Below are positions 54,851-62,046 of a stretch of DNA of 64,000 nucleotides, piece after piece; the stretch's first letter is position 1, and each line of letters opens with the position of its first letter. The translations under genes and the position numbers were made by a program. The notes beneath the pieces were generated by a model that made no database searches, was not told the origin of the DNA, and saw nothing but the letters and a program-made list of their open reading frames with translations. The DNA is from Cyanobium sp. NIES-981. Lineage in GTDB: Bacteria; Cyanobacteriota; Cyanobacteriia; PCC-6307; Cyanobiaceae. The stretch is from positions 434,001 to 498,000 of the forward strand of contig NZ_LT578417.1 of the NCBI RefSeq assembly GCF_900088535.1. Direction: 5' to 3'.

Positions 54851-54963
54851 GGCTCGGCAGCCGGATCCCGCCTCGATCCGTGCTTCCACCGTTGCGGAAT
54901 GGCCGCCGGATCGGCGTGGCTGGATGGAGAGCTGCCCCAGGGCAACTCCCTACATCTCCTGCT

Positions 54964-55734
54964 ATGGCTCGCCCCATGTCGACCCCCTCCTCCCTTCGCC
55001 CCTCCACTTCCGTTCAGGCCCGCAACCGGCGGGTCGAGCAGTACAGGTCCCTGGTGCGGCCGATCGCTCTCCACTACCACCGTCGCTGCGCCGAACCCCT
55101 GGACGATCTCATCCAGGTGGGTCTGCTCGGCCTGCTGCGGGCCGCTGAGCTCTACCGACCGGCCACCACCACCCCGTTCGAGGCCTTTGCCCGGCCCCAT
55201 GTGCGCGGCGCCCTGCTGCACTACCTGCGGGACGTGGCTCTGCCGATCCGGCTGCCACGGCGGCTGGATGAGCAAAGGCTCCAGCTGGCGCGCCTGCGCA
55301 GCACCTGGCTGGCCAGCCACCATCGGCCTGCCACCGAGCAGGAACTGCGGGACCAGCTGGGCCTTGACCAGGGCCAGTGGACCCTGCTGCAGGCGGCGGA
55401 GCAGCTGGTGCGGGTCCAGTCGCTCGAAGCCTGGCTGGATGACGGCTCCGAGCAGCCCTCCACCGCGCTGGAGCCCCAGGCTTCCGATGCAGGTTCGGCA
55501 GACGGCACGGCCGCCGCTTCGGTCCTGCTGGCCGGGCTTGAAGAGCCCCTGCGGCTGGTGGTGGAGCGGGTGATCCTGGCCGGCTGGAGCTACCGCCGCA
55601 CAGCTGCCTGGCTGCAGGTGAGCCCGATGACGGTGCAGCGCCGCCTGCGCCGTGCCCTGGGGCTGCTGCGTGACTGTCTGGTCAGTCCTGAGCCGGGGTT
55701 ACGTCCCGCTGCATCTGTTGCTCCAGGGTGCTGA
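54964..55734 (+). CDS. group 3-like sigma-70 factor
   Basis: A 256-residue alternative sigma factor. Region 2 is DDLIQVGLLGLLRAAELYRP with the following FEAFARPHVRGALLHYLRD, which fits the group 3 family (SigF/SigB type). Region 3 is near residues 100-150, and region 4 has AAWLQVSPMTVQRRLRRALG as its helix-turn-helix. A linker of about 45 residues rich in A, E, P and S lies before region 4. ATG 54964 is used; ATG 54976 four codons later is an alternative. The end overlaps a convergent small gene by 53 bases. The regulon is unknown. Confidence 0.87.
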   Translation: MARPMSTPSSLRPSTSVQARNRRVEQYRSLVRPIALHYHRRCAEPLDDLIQVGLLGLLRAAELYRPATTTPFEAFARPHVRGALLHYLRDVALPIRLPRRLDEQRLQLARLRSTWLASHHRPATEQELRDQLGLDQGQWTLLQAAEQLVRVQSLEAWLDDGSEQPSTALEPQASDAGSADGTAAASVLLAGLEEPLRLVVERVILAGWSYRRTAAWLQVSPMTVQRRLRRALGLLRDCLVSPEPGLRPAASVAPGC

Positions 55735-55959: not shown

Positions 55960-56192
55960 CGCCAGCCCAGGCCAGCCCCTCACCTCACCGTTGAGCACCG
56001 ACGCTTCCGGTAGGGTTGCCCCATCAGGAGATGGGTCTGCTGTTCCGGCATGGTCCCTCGCCACCAGCCCTCGCCTGGTTCCCGGCATCCGGGGGTCCGG
56101 AGGCACCGACGGCCGGCCCTGCTCCGTGCCGATCAGGCCGCTACCCCCCATCGCAGATCCACGCTGCTCAGTTCTTTCACCCCCGAAGAAGT

Positions 56193-57818
56193 TTGAGACC
56201 GTTGGTTGCCTCCCGGCTGTGCCCCTTCACCGCAGGCCTGGTGCCAGTGGCCATCGTCGCCGCCGTGGCCGTGGCGTCCTGTCCGGTGCAGCCGGCCCAG
56301 GCAGCGGTGGCGCTGATGGCGGGTCAGCGGGCGCGCCCCCTCAACGGCACCTTCAACAAGGTGCCGGTGCTCCATTCCAACCAGCCCGAGGAAGTGGAAG
56401 GACCCGGCATCCTGATCACCACCGAGCCGGGCGTGTCCTACGCGGCCGAGGACGGTCGGGCGCTGCGCAATGCCGAATTCACGTTCAACGGTGAATTCGG
56501 CCTGCACATGCACCACAAGTATTTCCCCACCTACCGCAGCCAGATCCGCCCCGGAGAGCGGCGCACCGAACTCACGCTCGGGCTGATCCTGATCAATCCC
56601 GGGCAGCGACCGGTTCAGATCCAGTTCGAGCGAGGAGCGGTGCGCAACAGCTTCGAGGCTCCCTACCTCGCCAACCATCTGATGGGCGTCAAGCCCCTGG
56701 GGGTGCGTCCCTGGAACACCGGTCCTGGGGATGCCACGGCCGTCCAGATGCTGCGAGGCAACCTGGATCGGCGGCTCACTGACCAGATCACCATCCCGCC
56801 GCGCAGCCGGGTGGTGCTGTTCCGCACCCAGCTCCCGGCCCTCGGCATCGCCAATGCCCTGCTGCGCGGGCGGAGCACCGGCCCGTTCCAGATGGCGGTG
56901 GTGGCCGCCAGCAATCCCTACAGCGATGCCGATCTGGTGGCGGTACTCGACCAGCGACGCCTGGCTCCCGGTCGCGTGTATCTCAACCAGGTGGCCGCCA
57001 TCAACAACCGCCGCGTGTTCTCGCGGGTGGGGGGAGTGGCCCTCGGCGACGAGTACACCGCCGCGATCAAGCATGACCTCAACCGGGAGGGTGCCCTGCA
57101 TGTGCCGCTCACCAGCACGGTGCGCCATCACTTCGGCACCAAGGACATCCAGGTGAATCCCCTGGCCAGCCGCATGATCGATTCCTCCCTCGACAACGTC
57201 GGCACCTATGGCGTTCGCTTCGACGTCGATCTGAATCTCTACGGCTCAGGTCCCTACGAGCTGGTGATGAGCCACCCCACCGTGGCGGGGCTGAACCCCT
57301 TCACAGCCTTTCGTGGCTCCATTCAGATCCGCACCGCCGAAGGCCTGCAGGAGGTGCACGTCGGCCTGCGTTCCGGCCAGAGCCTTTCCCTCACCAGCCT
57401 CAATCTGCGGCCGGGCGTCAGCAATCCCGTGCGTGTGAGTGTGGTCTATCCCGCCGACGCCACCCCGGGCCATCTGCTCAGCGTGGTGCCGGCCACCCAG
57501 CTGGCCATGGTCCAGGCCCGGGAGGAGGAGCAGCAACGCCAAGCCGCCGCTGCGGCGGCCCAGCCGGGAGCGGCCCAGCCGGCGGCCCCCCGGCCAGCGG
57601 CCCCCAGACCGGCGCCGGCACCTGCGGCTGCTGCGGCCATGCCGGCAGCGCCGCTGCCCCGCACCCTTCCCCCCACCAACGCCGCCACGCCGGGCCCGGC
57701 GACCCGGGCCCGGCCGCCTGCGCCCACGGCCACACCGGTGAGTCCGGCCCTGCTCGATCGCTATCAGGAGGCTCTCGAGGCGCAGCGGCGTGCCTTGCGC
57801 GAGCTGATGGGGCCTTGA
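56193..57818 (+). CDS. DUF3370-family exported protein
   Basis: A protein of about 541 residues. After a signal peptide (VAIVAAVAVASCPVQPAQAA) the mature start AVALMAGQRARPLNGTFNKV and the segments FNGEFGLHMHHKYFPT and NPYSDADLVAVLDQRRLAPG resemble DUF3370, a cyanobacterial family of secreted or outer-layer proteins of unknown function. A Pro/Ala-rich tail of about 75 residues precedes a short charged end (LDRYQEALEAQRRALRELMG). The start is uncertain: TTG 56193 or TTG 56202 place the signal peptide normally, whereas the frame is open further upstream to an ATG at 56031 that would bury it. A TAGGGT at 56011 fits a long leader. Confidence 0.75.
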   Translation: MRPLVASRLCPFTAGLVPVAIVAAVAVASCPVQPAQAAVALMAGQRARPLNGTFNKVPVLHSNQPEEVEGPGILITTEPGVSYAAEDGRALRNAEFTFNGEFGLHMHHKYFPTYRSQIRPGERRTELTLGLILINPGQRPVQIQFERGAVRNSFEAPYLANHLMGVKPLGVRPWNTGPGDATAVQMLRGNLDRRLTDQITIPPRSRVVLFRTQLPALGIANALLRGRSTGPFQMAVVAASNPYSDADLVAVLDQRRLAPGRVYLNQVAAINNRRVFSRVGGVALGDEYTAAIKHDLNREGALHVPLTSTVRHHFGTKDIQVNPLASRMIDSSLDNVGTYGVRFDVDLNLYGSGPYELVMSHPTVAGLNPFTAFRGSIQIRTAEGLQEVHVGLRSGQSLSLTSLNLRPGVSNPVRVSVVYPADATPGHLLSVVPATQLAMVQAREEEQQRQAAAAAAQPGAAQPAAPRPAAPRPAPAPAAAAAMPAAPLPRTLPPTNAATPGPATRARPPAPTATPVSPALLDRYQEALEAQRRALRELMGP

Positions 57819-57850
57819 GCACGTGACCACGGCGGACCCTTCCTTGAACA

Positions 57851-59068
57851 GTGGCTGAGCAGGAGCAGGACGACCGTCGCCAGATCAGCCTGCGGCTGCC
57901 CGAGGAGCTGATCAGCCGCATCGATGCGCTCAAGGGGGAGTTCGGCTGTCGCAGCCGCGGCGCCATCGTGGAACGGCTGCTGCAGAGCCTGCTGGCGACC
58001 GACGAGGAAGGTCCCAGCGACTGCATCGCGAGCTTCGATCCACAGAGCCTCGATCCACAGAGCCTCGATCCGCAGGGCATCCATTCGCCTGCCCGGGAGG
58101 CAGCGCAGGGCCGGAGTCCGTCGGCCGCTGCGGCGGCGGTGGCACCCTCGGATCCTCCATCCCCCAACGACCCACTCCCCAACGGCCTTTCAACCAACGA
58201 CCCGTCAGCCGAATCGCCGAGCGCTCTGGACAGCGGTTTTGATGAGCGCGGCGCACTCGTGCTGCGCCTGGGCAGCACGGCAGGCGATCTGGTGCTCGAT
58301 GCACCGATGCCGAGCGGAGATGGAGAGCAGGCTCAGTCCGGTGCCGCGACGGCCAGCTCGGCTGATCCGCCGGGCCGTGGGGCCCCCAGCCGCGGCATCG
58401 ATCTGCCGGGCTTCGTGCAACGCCGCACGGACCAGTTGCGCCGCAGTCTTCACCCCACGGCGGCGGAGGCCTCCAGCAGTCTGGAGCCGCTTCCCCAGGT
58501 GCCGGCCGCGAGGATCGCCAGTGCTCTGGCCAAGGCTGAGGCCCACTGGCATGAGCTCTACGGGCAACCGGCCAACCCGGCGGTGCTGGAGGCGGCCATG
58601 CTGTGGATGGCCCAGGACGTGTGGCCCCAGAGTGATCAGAGCGAGGGCCGACCGTTCACCTGGTCGCTGGCCAGCGCCGTGATGCGCCAGCTGACCCCTG
58701 ACTGGCCCGACCTGCCCCCCTCGTTCGGCCGGGTGATGGTGACGGCAGGGGTTCTGGAGGATCCGTTCAGCAGTGCCACGCTTGAGCTTCGGATCCCCAC
58801 CTTGATCCGGCGCTTCGTTCACCGCTTCCGCCGGCGCCGACCAGGTGCCACGTTCCAGACGCTGGAGCACACGATGACCCTTCACGGTGCCCTGAAGCTG
58901 CTGGAGCTTCCCACCGATCCCGGTCAGCGTCTCACCCTGCCGCAGATCCGTGAGGCCTACAGGGAGATGGCCCTGGCCCACCATCCCGATGCCGGCGGCT
59001 CCGAGGAGGCGATGCGCCGCCTCAATGAGGCCTATCAGTTGCTCAAGGAGCTCTACCGCACACCCTGA
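57851..59068 (+). CDS. ribbon-helix-helix / J-domain fusion protein
   Basis: A 405-residue protein. Residues about 12-48 (QISLRLPEELISRIDALKGE, then SRGAIVERLLQSLL) have the pattern of a CopG/Arc-type ribbon-helix-helix. Residues about 55-150 are low complexity and include a repeated DPQSL peptide, encoded by 15-base tandem repeats. A conserved-looking middle, about 185-330, is not assignable. The last 70 residues are a J-domain with HPD at 378-380 (LAHHPDAGG) and helix LNEAYQLLKELY. A DNA-binding-like head joined to an Hsp70 co-chaperone end is unusual. GTG 57851 follows the DUF3370 gene by 32 bases. Confidence 0.8.
   Translation: MAEQEQDDRRQISLRLPEELISRIDALKGEFGCRSRGAIVERLLQSLLATDEEGPSDCIASFDPQSLDPQSLDPQGIHSPAREAAQGRSPSAAAAAVAPSDPPSPNDPLPNGLSTNDPSAESPSALDSGFDERGALVLRLGSTAGDLVLDAPMPSGDGEQAQSGAATASSADPPGRGAPSRGIDLPGFVQRRTDQLRRSLHPTAAEASSSLEPLPQVPAARIASALAKAEAHWHELYGQPANPAVLEAAMLWMAQDVWPQSDQSEGRPFTWSLASAVMRQLTPDWPDLPPSFGRVMVTAGVLEDPFSSATLELRIPTLIRRFVHRFRRRRPGATFQTLEHTMTLHGALKLLELPTDPGQRLTLPQIREAYREMALAHHPDAGGSEEAMRRLNEAYQLLKELYRTP
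58035..58078. repeat. 15-base in-frame tandem repeat inside the RHH-J gene
   Basis: TCGATCCACAGAGCC occurs twice perfectly and a third time with two changes. It encodes repeated DPQSL in the linker, and its multiple of three keeps the frame. Confidence 0.8.
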
Positions 59069-59735
59069 AGCAGGAGACGCCGAACAGGCCTGTCTCACCC
59101 CTGTCGAACAGGACCCTTTCCAGGTCCTGGAAATAGTCCCGGATGAGACCTCTGGGATATCCGAAGGTCTCCCGCCTCCCTTGCGATTGCCGTGTTGTGG
59201 CGCCGTGGAGGGTGTCCGCGCCGCACGGCGGGAAGGGCTGCAATGGGGAGCCCTGCGGGGCAGCAGTGACGCGTCTCAGGGGTCGCGTGCTCGACACTTC
59301 ATAAGACCAGGACTGAGACCGTAACGCGACCAGCAAGACTATGAATTGTTCGCGATTCTGCCCTGCGTTGTTGAGTTCTACCCCCTGGCCGACTGCTCCC
59401 CACGCCCCTTCCAGAGAGCAGGACTGGTGGCCAATCACCTCCGGCCAGGCGTGTCCAAGGGCGTGAACAAGGCCTCAGAGAGGCTGCTGGAACTGGGATG
59501 GGCTCGGCTGCGTACCTGTGTCTGATGCAGATACGCAGCCCCGTCCCGCCGCTGGCGGCCACGGCGGCTCCCTGTTCTGCGGTCCTGGTTTCTCCGGTCC
59601 TGGCGAAGAAGCGTGTCGCCCTCTGCCACAACACCTGGCCGCGGCGCAGGGCCGCTCCACTCACGTCTCTAGAGTCTCATCCAAGACCAGAACCAGGTCT
59701 GATGACGCGACCTGAATGAGACAGTTGCTATGGGG

Positions 59736-59806
59736 TGGCAAACACCCGCCCGCCTGACCAGGCCGGCTTCAGGCGCCGACCAGGAGTCGGGCGGTCAGGG
59801 GTGCCA
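59736..59806. other. candidate branched RNA structure
   Basis: The outer arm TGGCA/TGCCA (with CACC/GGTG stacking inside) encloses CCTGACC/GGTCAGG (59753-59759 with 59793-59799) and a small inner hairpin CCGAC/GTCGG (59776-59790). The length is about 70 bases and each arm is perfect. Strand and expression are unknown. I recognise no known riboswitch, SRP, 6S, tmRNA or tRNA motif in it. Confidence 0.4.
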
Positions 59807-60030
59807 TGCAGTCACGTCGTGAGCTCTCCCTCCGTTCTCAGTTGCGAATCAGAAGTGGACTAGCTGTTGGACTTCGATGAGTCTTCCGGGATCACGCCGT
59901 ATCGGCTCAGTGCGAATTCCGTTGGCGCCGTGGTCTGCCTGCAGGCATTCGAGCCTCACCGCGACCGCTCACATGCCGCCCTGCATCCTCCACGCCGCTG
60001 GATCCCACCCCGGTGCATTGCCATGCCAGA

Positions 60031-60062
60031 ACCCCCAGGCTGGCGATGGCCAGCCTGGGGGT
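60031..60062 (-). terminator. strong hairpin downstream of apcD
   Basis: A perfect 14-bp stem (ACCCCCAGGCTGGC with GCCAGCCTGGGGGT) with a GATG loop begins 26 bases after the apcD stop on the minus strand. No long T run follows. It is the most stable hairpin noticed in the window. Confidence 0.75.
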
Positions 60063-60088
60063 GGAACGGGTGCGTCCGGCGGCGGACT

Positions 60089-60697: not shown

Positions 60698-62046
60698 GTG
60701 GGAGAACGGGTGGAGATCCGCATCGATGGTCTCTCCCATGACGGACAGGGGGTGGGGCGTCACGACGGCGTGGCCTGCTTCGTGCCCGGCGCCCTGCCCG
60801 GTGAGCGGGTCACCGTCCGGCTGGTGCACCGTGCCCGGCGCCACTGGCTGACAAGCCTGGAGGAGGTGCTCACGGTCTCGCCGGCCCGCCGCCGCCCGCC
60901 CTGCATCCTCGCCGACCACTGCGGCGGGTGCAGCCTCCAGCATCTCGTCGATGCCCAGCAGGCCCACTGGAAGGAGCAGAGGGTGCGGGAGGCCCTCGAG
61001 CGGATCGGCGGGCTGGCGACCCCGGTGGCCGCGGTGATCACGGCGCCTGCCGCCCTGGGCTACCGCAACCGCGCCATCATCCCGCTGGAGCGACGCCCGG
61101 ACGGCCGCCTGCGGGCCGGTTATTACCGGCGCGGCACCCACCGCATCGTCAACATGAGCCGTTGTCCGGTGCTGGATCCGCGCCTGGACGCCCTGATCGC
61201 CCCGCTCAAGGCCGATCTGGACACCAGCGGCTGGCCCGTGGACCGGGAACTGGCCGGCCCGGGCGGACTGCGCCACCTGGCGCTGCGGATCGGCCACCAC
61301 AGCGGGGAGGTGCTGCTCACGCTGGTGAGCAGCCATCCGGACCTCGATCAGCTGCCCCGCTGGGCCGAGCGCTGGCAACAGCGCTGGCCCCAGCTCGTGG
61401 GGGTGACGCTGAATCTGCAACCCCAGCCCACCAACACCCTGCTCGGTGCGGAGACGGAGCTGGTGGCCGGCCGCAGCTGGCTCGCCGAGCGCTTCTGCGG
61501 TCTGGAGCTGCGCATCGCCAGCGACACCTTCTTCCAGGTGAACACGCCCCAGGCCGAGCGGGTCGTCCCGCTGCTGCTGCAGGCGCTGGAGGGCGTCAAC
61601 CCCGGACTGCTGGTGGACGCCTACTGCGGCATCGGCACCTTCAGCCTGCCCCTGGCCCAGGCCGGCTGGCGGGTGCACGGGCTGGAGCGCAACCCCGAGG
61701 CCGTGCGTCTGGCGGCTCTCAACGCGGCGGTGAACGGCCTCGCCGCGGTGGCCAGCTTCGAGGCGGGGGAGGTGGGCACGCTGCTGCCGTCCTGGCTGCC
61801 CCGCTGCCAGGCGCTGTTCCTCGATCCGCCCCGCCGGGGCCTCGATGGGGCGGTCCTGGCGGCCCTGCAGGCGTCCCCCCCCCCCTGCTCCTCTACCTGA
61901 GCTGCGATCCGGCCACCCTGGCCCGCGATCTCGGCCAGCTCTGCCGCTCCTGCGGCTATGGGGTGAGCACGGTGCAGCCGCTGGACTTCTTTCCCCAGAC
62001 CAGCCACGTGGAGACACTGGCAGTGCTGCGGCGCCACGGGGGGTGA
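60698..62046 (+). pseudogene. rlmD: 23S rRNA (uracil-5-)-methyltransferase of the RlmD/TrmA family, frameshifted at poly-C
   Basis: The gene has an N-terminal TRAM-like domain (VEIRIDGLSHDGQGVGRHDG), an iron-sulfur cysteine cluster CGGCSLQHL near residue 75, and the SAM motif [14 protein letters not shown]. The frame is open from GTG 60698 to 61900 (400 residues) but then ends shortly after an 11-base C run (61875-61885). The remaining part, with the catalytic cysteine region [14 protein letters not shown] and the end [14 protein letters not shown], is in another frame to 62046. Twelve or nine Cs would restore the frame. It could be a sequencing error, a slippage site or a true lesion. The exact target within the RlmD, RlmC and TrmA group is not certain. 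Confidence 0.85.
61875..61885 (+). repeat. poly-C run of 11 bases at a frameshift site
   Basis: The longest homopolymer noticed in the window lies exactly where the rlmD-type gene changes frame. One base more or two fewer would restore a continuous reading frame. Confidence 0.9.

Follow-up and report, generated by a model that had tools for sequence, protein, structure and literature searches.

A ribbon-helix-helix and J-domain fusion protein conserved in picocyanobacteria, with a putative role as a DNA-associated Hsp70 co-chaperone

The RHH-J Gene and Its Product

The window analyzed here is a stretch of 64,000 nucleotides from Cyanobium sp. NIES-981. The ORF list and family searches led to a gene on its forward strand, at position 57851-59068, which starts with GTG and encodes a 405 aa protein, named here RHH-J. 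It consists of an N-terminal ribbon-helix-helix (RHH) head, a linker, a conserved motif, a helical domain and a C-terminal J-domain. In a Pfam scan of the whole protein RHH_1 and DnaJ were the sole matches, and NCBIfam presented no family covering its full length. An in-frame stop (57845-57847) is located just 5' of the ORF, and between the GTG and the RHH there is no other in-frame start. GTG is also the start codon nearest to the RHH in 59 of the 81 RHH-J genes, even within the AT-rich Prochlorococcus, a preference that possibly keeps the protein level low. The RHH lies at the N-terminus in all 81 sequences and is translated, since the nearest start codon sits at a near-constant distance from it. 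A true start further downstream, which the preliminary description of the locus had pointed out as fatal to the fusion, was excluded by the conserved start position and by the purifying selection on the RHH codons (dN/dS 0.038).

The RHH head occupies residues 10-49 (57878-57997, forward strand) and was delimited by Pfam RHH_1, CopG/NikR profile matches, the predicted model and dN/dS. RHH_1 (PF01402) matches residues 12-49 (E-value = 4.2e-5, 23.8 bits against a cut-off of 20.5), while the profile of the head gave weak matches to CopG and NikR. A strand (10-16) is followed by two helices (18-26 and 36-48), and the predicted model (pLDDT 86-94) has the helices in place. The region aligned across all 81 members and, when these were searched one by one, RHH_1 was matched at an E-value of 0.01 by only 42. 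RHH-J shares the strand-helix-helix head, with a Pfam match over the cut-off, with the CopG/RHH_1 repressors (PF01402). Those are typically short, however, and their fusion to a J-domain is not reported in the sources searched. Alignment with CopG placed the DNA-facing strand residues of RHH-J at positions 11, 13, and 15, where most members have R, S, and D/E (R-S-D and R-S-E being the commonest) and the window protein has Q, S, and R. The R-x-R-G turn ahead of the second helix is nearly invariant.

The variable, acidic, low-complexity linker covers residues 50-181 (57998-58393, forward strand) according to alignment, dN/dS and the model, in which its pLDDT is mostly below 50. Its residues 55-180 amount to 126 positions in the window protein and range from 49 to 159 across the family. 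A repeat search located the in-frame 15-bp tandem repeat already noticed in the linker at 58030-58075 (forward strand, 3.1 copies, 93% matches), which encodes (SLDPQ)n. The recent length change that had been read from it is plausible, since the nearest relative (78% identical to the window RHH-J) has no such repeat array. Alignment also revealed a short linear motif of DExGALVLV type that is conserved within the linker, at residues 129-139 (58235-58267, forward strand). Directly after the linker, a conserved amphipathic motif, GIDLPGFVxRRxxxLRRSL, at residues 182-200 (58394-58450, forward strand), was recognized by alignment and dN/dS.

Structure prediction of the middle part of the protein, as had been proposed, gave an all-helical domain at residues 218-331 (58502-58843, forward strand), with pLDDT over 90 in most blocks. 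Its invariant residues are H232, W233, Y237, E247, W252, W258, F269, W271, E303-D304-P305, R314, P316, R321, and F322. Model and profile searches characterize the domain as lineage-specific; a profile of residues 181-353 gave matches confined to the RHH-J family in 291 genomes of the class and in 244 genomes of the phylum. No solved structure in the PDB was related to it by sequence, and neither the Foldseek matches (best E-value 1.1 in the PDB and 0.55 in viral models) nor the best VIA fold match (Z 4.0, SifA-SKIP complex) can be trusted, although the lack of matches is no proof that the fold is new. Pfam TerB was not matched by any of the 81 members at an E-value of 0.01; it was also missing from the fold matches of the domain, an absence that does not exclude TerB. 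Both the motif at 182-200 and the helical domain had escaped the preliminary description, which was otherwise right on the fusion, the two named domains, the HPD tripeptide and the repeat. Both are constrained almost to the degree seen in the named domains, and they represent the likeliest site for a partner or client.

Alignment further showed that the helical domain ends in a basic helix, residues 308-331 (58772-58843, forward strand), with a net charge of +7 in the window protein and a median of +8 in the family, which could provide an extra contact with nucleic acids. The same helix bears on the question of whether the protein works on DNA at all. RHH domains dimerise and bind DNA, and RHH domains that do not bind DNA are uncommon. 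In RHH-J, DNA binding has to be regarded with caution because the third strand residue, position 15, is acidic (D/E) in 55 of the 81 members, which is unusual for a base contact and sets them apart from the CopG/RHH_1 repressors. The RHH could accordingly be a module for dimerisation or protein interaction only, and RHH-J a dimeric J-protein acting off DNA, for instance at the ribosome or at the membrane through the strongly basic conserved helix, with its possible membrane or RNA contact. We consider this unlikely, given that the first two strand positions mostly retain R and S/Q/T/N, the residues expected there in an RHH protein that binds DNA, and that the R-x-R-G turn has been kept.

The C-terminal J-domain covers residues 342-403 (58874-59059, forward strand). 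DnaJ (PF00226) matches residues 362-399 (E-value = 9.3e-7, 29.3 bits against a cut-off of 27.8) and its profile is matched by all 81 members; with both domains above their Pfam cut-offs, the earlier reading of an RHH-like head fused to a J-domain tail holds. The HPD motif (H378-P379-D380, at 58982-58990, forward strand) is found in the sequence where it had been described, at residues 378-380, and is invariant in 81 of 81. HPD J-domains stimulate the DnaK ATPase. The model presents a short J fold of three helices, without helix IV and with nothing C-terminal of it; residues 342-405 match best the Tim16 chain of Tim14/Tim16 (2guz_B, Z 10), while many other J-domains, including that of CbpA and one bound to DnaK, gave a Z of about 7. 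The DnaJ equivalogs of NCBIfam score far under their cut-off, and RHH-J does not have the class A/B arrangement of an N-terminal J-domain, a G/F region and C-terminal substrate domains. Because its J-domain is short, devoid of helix IV and positioned at the C-terminal end, RHH-J was assigned to the class-C (type III) J-proteins and not to DnaJ/CbpA. Tim14/Pam18-Tim16, the closest J fold, likewise have a short C-terminal J-domain but are subunits of the mitochondrial import motor and carry no DNA-binding domain; Tim16 lacks the HPD. DjlA also resembles RHH-J, as a co-chaperone in which a helical domain is followed by a C-terminal J-domain, but it is membrane-anchored and has a TerB domain, and its NCBIfam model matched RHH-J insignificantly (E-value = 0.17).

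Distribution and Selection

A first search, covering 40 related genomes, recovered full-length relatives, reaching as far as small genomes of the Prochlorococcus type. A search with a 20-sequence alignment matched 338 of 400 sampled Cyanobiaceae genomes, and RHH-J is present in 233 of the 251 good-quality ones (Cyanobium, Synechococcus, and Prochlorococcus), making it near-universal in the family. In named genomes 324 relatives were confirmed, the best 80 of which, from Cyanobium, Synechococcus, Prochlorococcus, Vulcanococcus, Aphanothece, and other relatives, were kept; all 80 have the whole architecture in the same domain order. The expected conservation across Synechococcus and Cyanobium was therefore seen, and it reaches Prochlorococcus too. 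The gene was absent from every genome outside Cyanobiaceae in the class- and phylum-level samples. These counts show that the fusion is neither local nor recent. Compared with its nearest relative, the window gene shows strong purifying selection on every domain, with dN/dS values of 0.038 for the RHH, 0.042 for the motif at 182-200, 0.073 for the middle domain and 0.020 for the J-domain, against 0.402 for the linker. The low values of the RHH and J-domain against the 0.40 of the linker argue that their fusion is not due to chance.

A few good, near-complete genomes are missing RHH-J, and it is therefore not universally essential. In one genome lacking it (G052) the locus has closed up, leaving about 750 bp from the Ap4A phosphorylase to the phycobilisome gene. 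Genus g9 (G020, G089, and G116; loci L258, L261, and L262) also has no RHH-J. In the g9 loci checked, DUF3370, sigma factor and SpoIID are absent as well and PhzF adjoins the Ap4A phosphorylase; either the gene was lost or the genus branched off before its origin.

Searches of Pfam, NCBIfam, the PDB and the literature brought up no characterized or named member, in agreement with the preliminary description, and no such fusion is described in the open-licence papers searched. Concerning carriage by phages, the matches in phage records were all partial, and those listed cover the J-domain; an IMG/VR scan gave no match. Phage carriage and a role as a defense system (no match in PADLOC) were both rejected.

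Gene Neighborhood

In Cyanobium and Synechococcus the genes upstream are, in order, PhzF-like, SpoIID-like, Ap4A phosphorylase, sigma factor, and DUF3370, and RHH-J is followed by a phycobilisome gene (reverse), an rRNA methyltransferase and PheT (reverse). Pfam and locus comparison identified the sigma-70-type factor of the window at 54880-55734 and the DUF3370 protein at 56016-57818 (both forward strand), conserved neighbors that are lost in most Prochlorococcus and that we place outside the system; SpoIID, Ap4A phosphorylase, methyltransferase, and PheT are also at their expected places. No RNA or tRNA was found in the RHH-J region. Between RHH-J and the phycobilisome gene, about 1 kb (59069-60088) holds no tRNA, Rfam match or obvious gene, and a gap of similar size occurs in many relatives. 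A frameshift interrupts the rRNA methyltransferase-like gene (60698-61900) at 11 consecutive C residues (61874-61884), and the gene's conserved C-terminus runs on in another frame to 62046; either the gene is broken or the shift reflects slippage or an error of sequencing.

In most Prochlorococcus loci SpoIID, sigma factor, DUF3370, and the phycobilisome gene are gone, with RHH-J still near Ap4A phosphorylase and PheT. Since Prochlorococcus lost those genes and kept RHH-J, the latter is independent of them, and a function as helper of the phycobilisome, of DUF3370 or of the sigma factor is weakened. The same retention weighs on the proposal that RHH-J is a chaperone-sensing transcription factor, itself a client of Hsp70, whose DNA binding as an RHH dimer is altered by free DnaK through the J-domain, so that operator occupancy would report folding stress in an HspR-type feedback. 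Small repressors that regulate their own genes are common among RHH proteins, and in members other than Prochlorococcus RHH-J lies close behind DUF3370. Feedback of a J-protein on a repressor also has a precedent (PMC7074700). Nevertheless, we find this proposal improbable: the neighbors were lost while RHH-J stayed, the middle domain is more strongly constrained than a simple sensor would need, and no convincing shared operator was seen when the sequences upstream of the stand-alone RHH genes presented below were aligned, or when those upstream of RHH-J in Prochlorococcus were inspected.

Stand-Alone RHH Paralogues and Short DnaB Genes

Some Prochlorococcus and Synechococcus genomes also have stand-alone RHH proteins of the RHH-J subfamily, of 53-67 aa in most cases, and their existence is what would be expected of a working RHH module. 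At six of their loci the next gene encodes a protein of 307-312 aa; each of the three proteins scanned consists solely of the C-terminal helicase domain of DnaB, and the remaining three are closely related to them. Short DnaB genes recurred in a survey of 201 genomes, with a recognizable RHH directly ahead in 10 of the 13 loci checked and a decayed one in 1 more. This hints at replication, where RHH-J would recruit DnaK to a DNA-bound complex of an initiator or helicase, much as DnaJ and DnaK act at the lambda origin or on P1 RepA. The link runs through a paralogous domain only and the paired RHH may simply autoregulate its own operon; moreover, RHH-J is missing from the few near-complete genomes noted above, and the helicase operator in cyanobacteria is DciA (PMC5109545). 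Such a role is thus very doubtful, and we attach just as little probability to the fuller version in which RHH-J would serve picocyanobacteria as a nucleoid or replication factor that delivers Hsp70 to the DNA-bound initiator or replicative helicase, the stand-alone RHH beside the DnaB-domain gene of Prochlorococcus being a paralogous form of this module.

The Prochlorococcus-type unit itself comprises a stand-alone RHH gene and, about 80 bp on, the gene of the DnaB C-terminal helicase domain (about 310 aa), which is distinct from full-length DnaB. Units were located at L197 8088-9341, L198 1940-3132, L199 6737-7954, L200 7678-8869, L201 7848-9037, and L202 6821-8022, and further ones in L243, L245, L247, and L249. 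Proteins composed of numerous DUF4116 repeats are encoded right behind the short DnaB gene in L201 (9045-10130), L241 (9581-10903), and L245 (9449-10417). The short DnaB genes of L242 and L248 have no RHH, and a tRNA-Pro lies within about 8 kb of them. PrsW-family protease genes are found near two stand-alone RHH genes (L197 7018-8040 and L204 8896-10479).

Proposed Role of RHH-J

J-proteins decide where Hsp70 works. We propose that RHH-J is a class-C J-protein which sits as a dimer on DNA and directs Hsp70 to a DNA-bound complex, a reading in which belief and doubt are evenly balanced because both DNA binding and DnaK stimulation rest on knowledge of the two domain families. The RHH head would form the dimer seated on DNA, and the long flexible acidic linker would give reach to the rest of the chain. 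The conserved motif and the helical domain might then bind a partner or client, whatever its nature, and the C-terminal HPD J-domain would recruit DnaK (Hsp70) and trigger its ATPase. Hsp70 would thus work locally, on a protein complex bound to DNA at selected sites, and not cell-wide; as envisaged previously, it may also act on the DNA-bound dimer itself. The retention of RHH-J in the streamlined Prochlorococcus, despite the loss of most neighbors, counted in favor of the DNA-anchored co-chaperone. Weighing on the other side are the acidic third strand residue of most members, the failure to find an operator common to the upstream regions, the restriction of single-sequence RHH_1 matches to 42 of the 81 members, and the few good genomes in which RHH-J is missing.

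A DNA-binding J-protein has a precedent in CbpA of E. coli (PMC2955964, PMC4344490), and CbpA of Helicobacter pylori, which acts on the repressor HspR while this is bound to DNA, offers one for the action of a J-protein on such a target (PMC7074700). Like RHH-J, the DnaK co-chaperone CbpA of E. coli unites an HPD J-domain, DNA binding and a dimer in one protein, the latter two being predicted in RHH-J. CbpA, however, has an N-terminal J-domain and no RHH, whereas RHH-J has a C-terminal J-domain, an RHH head and a middle domain with no detected relative. The RHH nucleoid protein CdbA of Myxococcus is functionally tied to the Hsp70-type PilZ-DnaK chaperones (PMC10313047), but these are, unlike RHH-J, separate proteins of a c-di-GMP-linked system with no J-domain fusion.

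RHH-J is a near-universal and so far undescribed protein of picocyanobacteria, including the ocean's tiny Prochlorococcus. Its middle domain is lineage-specific and confidently modeled, and the searches brought up no relative of it, which makes partner, site and structure each directly testable. The analysis suggests that picocyanobacteria aim Hsp70 at DNA sites by means of RHH-J; if this reading is true, Hsp70 would be aimed at DNA in the most abundant photosynthetic cells, which keep few regulators.
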